Of a DNA stretch of 64,000 bases, positions 60,535 through 61,359 are shown piece after piece. Within the stretch, counting starts at the first letter, position 1. Each line of letters begins with the position of its first letter. Below the pieces are notes generated by a model. The model had not been told where the DNA came from, searched no databases, and worked only from the letters and a program-made list of their open reading frames with translations. The position numbers and the translations under genes are program-made. Source of the DNA: Thermococcus sp. 21S7 (GTDB lineage: Archaea > Methanobacteriota_B > Thermococci > Thermococcales > Thermococcaceae); assembly GCF_012027615.1 (NCBI RefSeq), contig NZ_SNUT01000001.1, forward strand, positions 496,001 to 560,000. The letters run 5' to 3'.

Positions 60535-60675
60535 GGGGGCGTGGTGTAGCCTGGTCCATCATCGCGGGCTCCAGAGGTATGAGGACTTGCGGGTTTGCTG
60601 ATTTGGGGATGAGCCTTTGGAGCTCTGACCCGGAGAAACCCGCGGACCGGGGTTCAAATCCCCGCGCCCCCACCA
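60535..60675 (+). tRNA. tRNA-Trp (anticodon CCA) with box C/D intron
   Basis: Exons join to a complete cloverleaf: acceptor GGGGGCG/CGCCCCC, discriminator A, encoded CCA (60673-60675), and anticodon stem GCGGG/CCCGC with loop CTCCAGA (anticodon CCA at 60571-60573). An intron of about 63 nt lies at 60575-60637 after position 37. The bulge-helix-bulge is visible: CTCC (60569-60572) pairs with GGAG (60632-60635), flanked by bulges AGA and AAA. A TATA box AACTTATAAACTC lies just upstream of the gene. Confidence 0.97.
60575..60637 (+). ncRNA. tRNA-Trp intron with box C/D guide
   Basis: The intron carries a box C-like ATGAGGA at 60579-60585, D' CTGA at 60598-60601, C' ATGAG region at 60609-60613 and D CTGA at 60625-60628. 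The guide before D (60614-60623) pairs with 60568-60577, placing C34 opposite the fifth base (G620). The guide before D' (60589-60596) pairs with 60636-60643, placing C39 opposite the fifth base (G593). So it should direct 2'-O-methylation of C34 and C39 of its own tRNA, as known for archaeal tRNA-Trp introns (Cm34 and Um39 in Haloferax). Confidence 0.85.
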
Positions 60676-60679
60676 CAGC

Positions 60680-60701
60680 AAACTTTTCTGGCGAAAAGTT
60701 T
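60680..60701 (+). terminator. Hairpin downstream of tRNA-Trp
   Basis: AAACTTTT-CTGGCG-AAAAGTTT is a perfect 8-base-pair hairpin starting four bases after the tRNA CCA. It can serve as the tRNA terminator and shares its right arm with the terminal repeat of the element that follows. Confidence 0.5.
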
Positions 60702-61051
60702 CATCAAAGTTGATAGCTCCTTTTTGACGGGGTAGCTTCCTGCGCGACGTCGGGCTCTACTTGACGTGAGGGACGAGAGTCCAGTAGAGTTTGACCAAAG
60801 TTCGTGATTCCTTTATGAGTGGCGTTTTTAGGGTGTTGCCTTATCCATGTGGGGGTTTAAAGACTGGAATTCCCTTTTATTGGGCTGTTATTTGGGATTT
60901 GCATTTTTCCGCGCTCCGAAGGAGCGCTTTTGAAGTCAAAGTTGCGTTTTTGGACTTTTGGAGTGTGAATTCCCAATTAAACGGTCTTTTGAAGATGCAA
61001 CCTTTCCCAAAATCGCAGTTGAAGAGGAATCACGAACTTTGATGAAACTTT
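60695..61051. mobile_element. Inverted-repeat element, possibly a small mobile element, interrupted on the left
   Basis: The right end AGGAATCACGAACTTTG (61025-61041) is the reverse complement of 60796-60812, and AACTTTGATGAAACTTT (61035-61051) is that of 60695-60711. Together they give a 27-base terminal repeat. On the left it is split by about 84 bases (60712-60795) bounded by CAAAGTT at 60705-60711 and 60796-60802. The inside is AT-rich with a hairpin GCGCTCC-GAA-GGAGCGC (60911-60927). A small frame of 83 codons at 60791-61042 lies wholly inside and is not convincing as a gene. No transposase is present, so it could only be non-autonomous. Confidence 0.5.
60712..60795. repeat. 84-base insert inside the left terminal repeat
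   Basis: This segment separates the two halves of the left terminal repeat and is flanked by 7-base direct copies of CAAAGTT. It can fold as CTCTACT ... AGTAGAG around a smaller hairpin GGAC-GAGA-GTCC with a GNRA-type loop. It may be an insertion with target duplication or a transcribed RNA; the sequence cannot decide. Confidence 0.4.
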
Positions 61052-61122
61052 GCCCCGCAAAGTTTCAGCGCTGGCGGAAGTTTTATTAACTTTGACTTAC
61101 AAAAAGTTTACGAGGTGGTACT

Positions 61123-61359
61123 ATGGAGGAGCCCATAGTTATTGGAAAAGACAAATTCAAGATAAGTGAGGACGAGACCGCCAAAAGGGAGCTCCGCATA
61201 GTTAAGGTCAGCGACGATGTGATTCAGGTTCAGGAGGAGGTTCACGGCATCATCGCCCTCGTCGGCGCAAGCTCAAGCGTCAACATCAAGAAGGAGGAAC
61301 TTAAGAACCTCATAAAAGTCGCCAAAGAGGAGTTCGGCTGGACCGACATCTGCGAATGA
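61123..61359 (+). CDS. Small acidic protein, function unknown
   Basis: The product is 78 residues (MEEPIVIGKDKFKISEDETA ... VNIKKEELKNLIKVAKEEFG), mixed strand and helix with no membrane segment or known motif. GAGGTGG lies upstream of the ATG, and TTTTATTAAC at about 61080 is a likely TATA box. It sits between the inverted-repeat element and fbp but has its own promoter. The codon and residue use are normal for the genome, so I take it as real. Confidence 0.65.
   Translation: MEEPIVIGKDKFKISEDETAKRELRIVKVSDDVIQVQEEVHGIIALVGASSSVNIKKEELKNLIKVAKEEFGWTDICE

Follow-up and report, generated by a model that had tools for sequence, protein, structure and literature searches.

Hairpin-bounded palindromic elements behind tRNA genes of Thermococcus, a probably mobile non-autonomous family

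What kind of DNA follows the tRNA-Trp gene of Thermococcus sp. 21S7? The question is raised by a stretch of 64,000 nucleotides from this genome (contig NZ_SNUT01000001.1, positions 496,001 to 560,000 of the forward strand), called the window here, in which an inverted repeat lies directly behind that gene. A preliminary description, made from the letters alone, took it for a small MITE-like element whose left terminus had been split by an insertion. As argued below, the locus is best read as tRNA-Trp followed by a row of palindromic-element modules, without a single interrupted element, and these modules probably belong to a non-autonomous, hairpin-bounded mobile family of Thermococcus that is specialised for tRNA 3′ flanks. 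The parts of the locus are the following.

60535..60675, + strand: tRNA-Trp gene with intron and encoded CCA, anchoring the element row (sR3/sR40 matches, tRNA-like 3′ end)
60575-60630, + strand: C/D-box-like intron of tRNA-Trp
60680..60701, + strand: left terminal hairpin AAACTTTTC-TGGC-GAAAAGTTT, 4 nt past CCA; the same hairpin stands behind many tRNAs
60702..60738, + strand: putative stump of a type-2 element (CATCAAAGTTGATAGCTCC...GGGGTAGC), assigned by its match to the type-2 terminal inverted repeat (TIR) GTAGCTCC/GGAGCTAC
60739..60793, + strand: module A, an alternative terminal module of two hairpins, forming the left end in L053, L055-L060, L066, L067 and L009
60797..61040, + strand: 244-bp type-1 core, complete and bounded by the inverted ends AAAGTTCGTGATTC / GAATCACGAACTTT
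60866..60872, + strand: 5′ side of stem S2, GGAATTC
60911..60927, + strand: central hairpin S4, GCGCTCC-GAA-GGAGCGC
60967..60972, + strand: 3′ side of stem S2, GAATTC
61043..61067, + strand: right terminal hairpin TGAAACTTTGC-CCC-GCAAAGTTTCA, perfect, 11 bp, CCC loop

The tRNA-Trp gene has a counterpart in 30 relatives. ARAGORN at default settings did not call it, most likely because of the intron, which matches the C/D-box families sR3 and sR40 below their gathering scores (sR3 E=6e-7).

The inverted repeat is present as it had been described. The reverse complement of the right end, 61025-61051 (AGGAATCACGAACTTTGATGAAACTTT), contains both 60695-60711 (AAAGTTTCATCAAAGTT) and 60796-60812 (CAAAGTTCGTGATTCCT) exactly, the two matches overlapping at CAAAGTT, and the second hairpin claimed at 61043-61067 is also there. 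Within 60676-61067, the best distant 25-nt inverted repeat has 23 matches, compared to a maximum of 18 in 200 dinucleotide shuffles. The 400 nt of 60676-61075 have a folding energy of -153.7 kcal/mol (z -6.4), a value reached by 0 of 100 shuffles.

The proposal to search the genome and its relatives for the repeat end was followed, and copies were found throughout Thermococcus; with these many other copies, the characterization as a small, non-autonomous, MITE-like repeat adjoining a tRNA was borne out. Counts derive from pattern searches and excerpted stretches, the tRNA flanks of each genome being sampled in part, and give for the window genome (2.37 Mb) 24 matches to the element stretch and 47 to a probe built from its end. 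When the exact 24-base end pattern was scanned over 84,980 species, 14 stretches matched, all of them from Thermococcus. Comparison of 61 genomes with the window stretch yielded, beyond orthologous genes, two kinds of match, namely tRNA 3′ halves that continue into a hairpin and dispersed copies of query positions 240-567 with ~70% identity.

Alignment of 13 dispersed copies gives one unit of ~300 bp, which runs from a left hairpin (AAACTTCGC..GCGAAGTTT or similar) through GATC or CATC, the TIR AAAGTTNGTGATTCC, the core and the TIR GGAATCACNAACTTTGAT to a right hairpin, the core carrying a central GCGCTCC-NNN-GGAGCGC hairpin. Other TIRs occur in the same frame: GTAGCTCC/GGAGCTAC, GTGGTTCC/GGAACCAC, GTATGTCC/GGACATAC and GCATGCC. 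A complete member is a terminal hairpin, a core of ~245 bp with inverted ends of 13-14 bp and symmetric inner stems, and another terminal hairpin. Core length is fixed: in five genomes, the convergent TIR pairs of types 1 and 2 lie 237-255 bp apart, and these elements have the features of MITEs, i.e. terminal inverted repeats, shortness, no coding content and many copies. The median identity of copies within a type is ~55%. Literature searches in open-licence papers returned no description of such a family, which is thus apparently undescribed, a provisional statement given that the check covers open-licence papers only.

Two smaller groups of repeats were also seen behind tRNAs. One is a shorter subfamily with a ~180-bp core and the TIR GTATGTCC/GGACATAC, located behind tRNA-Ser(GGA) of two relatives (L078 1555-1734, L095 1554-1732), and the other comprises two further modules, one of the form CGAAAGACAAGGGGGCTCCGCCCCC...CTGTACTCTCAAACCCC and one with CAGCCCTTTCTNACGAAAGCGCTGGCGGA ends (L019 2324-2500, L045, L077, L030, L046).

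The preliminary description was correct about the tRNA neighbour and treated it as incidental, yet this neighbour turns out to be the defining feature of the family. In five genomes, 24 complete TIR pairs (237-255 bp) were picked independently of tRNA positions, and 19 of these cores start 29-35 nt past a tRNA 3′ end, where the chance expectation is 0.0009 per element. The distance corresponds to the hairpin plus 2-8 nt, and the elements thus begin 2-8 nt after the tRNA gene. Three further cores, including that of the window at 121 nt, sit behind another module in a row started by a tRNA; one more (L015) belongs to a row that follows a detached 3′ half of tRNA-Gly, and for the last one (L057) the excerpted stretch contains no tRNA. 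Orientation is also biased. With leave-one-out profiles, and with orthologues counted, 35 elements point with the tRNA and 5 against it, and for type 2 all 15 of 15 point with it (orthologues again counted, which renders any p-value for the bias optimistic).

A pattern consisting of a tRNA 3′ end, 0-30 nt and an AAACTTT..AAAGTTT hairpin is found at 11 of ~46 tRNAs in the window genome and at 16 of ~44 in G001, while the reversed-pattern control gave zero occurrences. Most Thermococcus genomes have the pattern; several species of the genus are almost devoid of it, and in the sister genera it is rare to absent. It is abundant in G001, G012, G000 and G077 and absent from G019, G003, G074 and G002. 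Copies away from tRNAs exist at L009, L016 and L117.

Two side observations concern the tRNA context. At L015 (~2575-2617; G000:C1 near 319,590), an isolated tRNA-Gly 3′ half, for which ARAGORN finds no full tRNA, abuts an ORF and is followed in its 3′ flank by several such elements in a row; it looks like an integration scar. At L091 (1141-1618), the space between the convergent genes tRNA-Val and tRNA-Leu is wholly occupied by a single element, which therefore touches a tRNA 3′ end on both sides.

Orthologous sites show that the elements turn over. The presence of an element at a given tRNA is not constant, as the tRNA-Trp and tRNA-Cys sites differ between genomes or lack elements. The 30 tRNA-Trp loci have differing subfamilies or no element, and at the tRNA-Cys site, compared up to the same promoter-proximal sequence on the right, G025 carries type 1 together with another element, G035 type 1 plus a GCATGC-like type, and G032 module A, type 1 and a GCATGC type; in G001, with a 95% identical flank, the same first hairpin is followed by a GCATGCC-type element. 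Empty sites were compared as suggested in the preliminary description. In G019, the next gene starts ~75 bp from tRNA-Trp with no element between. The emptiest close relative at tRNA-Cys, G004, lacks the core but retains two decayed hairpins. No pair of strains with a clean pre-insertion site was among the relatives compared, which counts against mobility.

Near-identical cores were found at separate loci of one genome, at tRNA-Trp and tRNA-Gly in G005 and at L013 and L015 in G000. In both pairs the cores are 97-99% alike inside, and the identity ends inside the end hairpins, which differ. One explanation for such pairs is gene conversion, which would carry the cassettes from one tRNA to another without any transposition, homology being supplied by the hairpins and by the 3′ half of the tRNA. 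The absence of target duplication and the combination of differing end hairpins with nearly identical cores are in line with this, and so are the two tRNA-Leu loci of G001 (L059/L060), at which the shared sequence extends into the tRNA body. In the G005 and G000 pairs, however, identity starts inside the hairpin and not in the tRNA, which leaves little homology there, and the copies at L009, L016 and L117 are distant from tRNAs. We regard recombination as the sole process as rather unlikely.

The cores also have a conserved fold. Types 1 and 2, aligned separately, share four stems at equal positions. S1 is the TIR; S2 is GAATTC/GAATTC or GGATTC/GAATCC in type 1 and GAGAAC/GTTCTC in type 2; S3, more tentatively, is GGGTTC or GGGTTT, and S4 is GCGCTCC or GACGCCC. 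Run on a mixed-subfamily alignment, RNAalifold returned the ends only, whereas the split by subfamily recovered the inner stems. Over 57 cores, S2 is paired in 95% of cells and S4 likewise in 95%, compared to 73% and 72%, respectively, with shuffled partners, a control that ignores relatedness. Between subfamilies, double base changes in S2 and S4 keep the pairing, which supports a constraint on folding at the RNA or DNA level, although the repair of quasi-palindromes could also generate such changes.

Host selection for the fold could account for the conservation without mobility. The elements would then be structured 3′ tails of tRNA transcripts, with candidate roles in termination, in processing or as a tRNase Z-released small RNA. 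The preferred tRNA strand (35:5, orthologues counted), the constant length and the stems that survive double changes are compatible with this, as is the slightly better folding of the tRNA strand relative to its complement (Wilcoxon p 0.04, 44 elements). Both strands fold strongly, however, and no Rfam match of meaningful score lies inside the element. In addition, orthologous tRNAs of close relatives bear different elements or none, and several Thermococcus species and the sister genera are almost without them. Passages of a T. kodakarensis transcriptome paper (PMC4247193) mention one tRNA-Arg/snoRNA co-transcript and no such repeat. A host RNA feature kept by selection is an unlikely explanation.

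Returning to the reading as mobile elements, the search for a mobilising machinery weakens it, as no mobilising gene, no coding version and no target duplication were found. For 45 elements, the longest word common to both flanks is 4.4 nt, compared to 4.5 with shuffled partners, and the tRNA 3′ end was not found repeated on the distal side of the insert. An integrase or casposon mode is ruled out by this lack of duplication. The Y1 (HUH) transposase PF01797 is absent from G000, G001, G012, G013, G077 and G093; since these are the element-richest genomes, a REP/RAYT mode is unlikely. Among the TIR pairs of five genomes, no autonomous version carrying a transposase inside the same TIRs was seen. 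One pair in G001, 953 bp apart, was considered as an autonomous partner and discarded, as it belongs to a gene-free row of elements. No plasmid or viral copy matched. Insertion into a pre-existing palindrome, with the outer arms derived from the target, was also considered; the arms would then need to be complementary, and this option was rejected because C is often the first base of left ends and is also the last base of right ends.

In the preferred scenario of a mobile, non-autonomous family, the core would be the mobile unit, with its ends recombined at the hairpins, and an enzyme encoded at another locus would copy or move it from one tRNA 3′ flank to another. Alternatively, host recombination may move the core by exchange between the short, repeated end hairpins. 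The tRNA 3′ flank might be favoured through recognition or through the homology of its hairpin, and transcription from the tRNA promoter may continue through the element and yield a folded RNA. A more specific picture, which we put forward tentatively as a real possibility, is that of genus-wide hairpin-bounded cassettes that colonise the first bases past tRNA genes, mostly in the tRNA direction, and that are moved by an undescribed machinery or act through a tRNA-driven RNA.

MITEs, ERIC, NEMIS/Correia and BOX elements are short non-coding repeats with inverted ends, full-length folding, many copies and a modular build. The Thermococcus elements share all of these features and differ in their location at tRNA 3′ flanks, preferred direction, exchangeable end hairpins, archaeal host, lack of target duplication and lack of a detected coding relative. 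REP/REPIN elements, moved by RAYT (Y1) transposases, have the same architecture of hairpin, spacer and hairpin and likewise form mosaics at the 3′ ends of genes; the present elements differ from them in that the richest genomes lack a Y1 gene and the spacer has a conserved fold and length. The SSV-type integrase elements and casposons of archaea also use the 3′ end of tRNA genes, but their distal end bears a duplicate of part of the tRNA or target, which is not seen here. The tRNA-targeting retrotransposons Dictyostelium TRE and yeast Ty resemble the family in function only, in that they keep a precise distance from tRNA genes and a precise direction; the Thermococcus elements have a prokaryotic host and neither coding capacity nor signs of reverse transcription.

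tRNA 3′ ends are classic landing sites of archaeal mobile DNA, and the known archaeal cases depend on integrases for which the tRNA's own sequence is the site used. If the preferred reading is true, small fold-back elements that are bound to the tRNA flank by position and direction, and whose cores are rapidly exchanged, represent a different use of this niche. The family accounts for the variability of the DNA that separates tRNAs from the next gene in Thermococcus, and it makes testable what becomes of RNA polymerase and of DNA immediately downstream of archaeal tRNA genes. Annotation of such folds as host RNAs calls for caution and further evidence.

It remains to explain the apparently split terminus of the window. 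The supposed 84-base insert is module A, which is a regular left end elsewhere: it stands directly behind tRNA-Leu genes in L056, L058, L059 and L060 and behind other repeats in L053, L055, L057, L066 and L067, and it also precedes type-1 TIRs at other loci. The two halves of the terminus are thus most plausibly the ends of two neighbouring elements. The first left piece (60695-60711) comprises part of the tRNA-proximal hairpin and the TIR of an apparently truncated element (GATAGCTCC...GGGGTAGC), so that 60680-60738 as a whole looks, from its sequence, like hairpin 1 plus a remnant of type 2. The second piece (60796-60812) serves as the complete core's left TIR. A single element with an intact 27-base terminus, interrupted by 84 bp between CAAAGTT repeats, is therefore highly improbable: CAAAGTT does flank the segment on both sides, literally as described, but most type-1 and type-2 members carry it within their TIR, and it recurs at 60937 and 61058, in addition to module A being a normal left end and the preceding piece resembling another subfamily.

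A row of this kind also occurs without a tRNA. At L117 (G001:C1:412300-415000), several different elements stand in tandem between two protein genes, with neither a tRNA nor a transposase gene. The surroundings of the window locus vary as well. tRNA-Trp and the next gene, of 78 aa (window 60535-61359), are arranged head to tail in the window, G012, G014, G027 and G019, and divergently, head to head, in many relatives (loci L024-L052). Since the orientation of the pair differs between relatives, either tRNA-Trp or the 78-aa gene has been inverted or moved.
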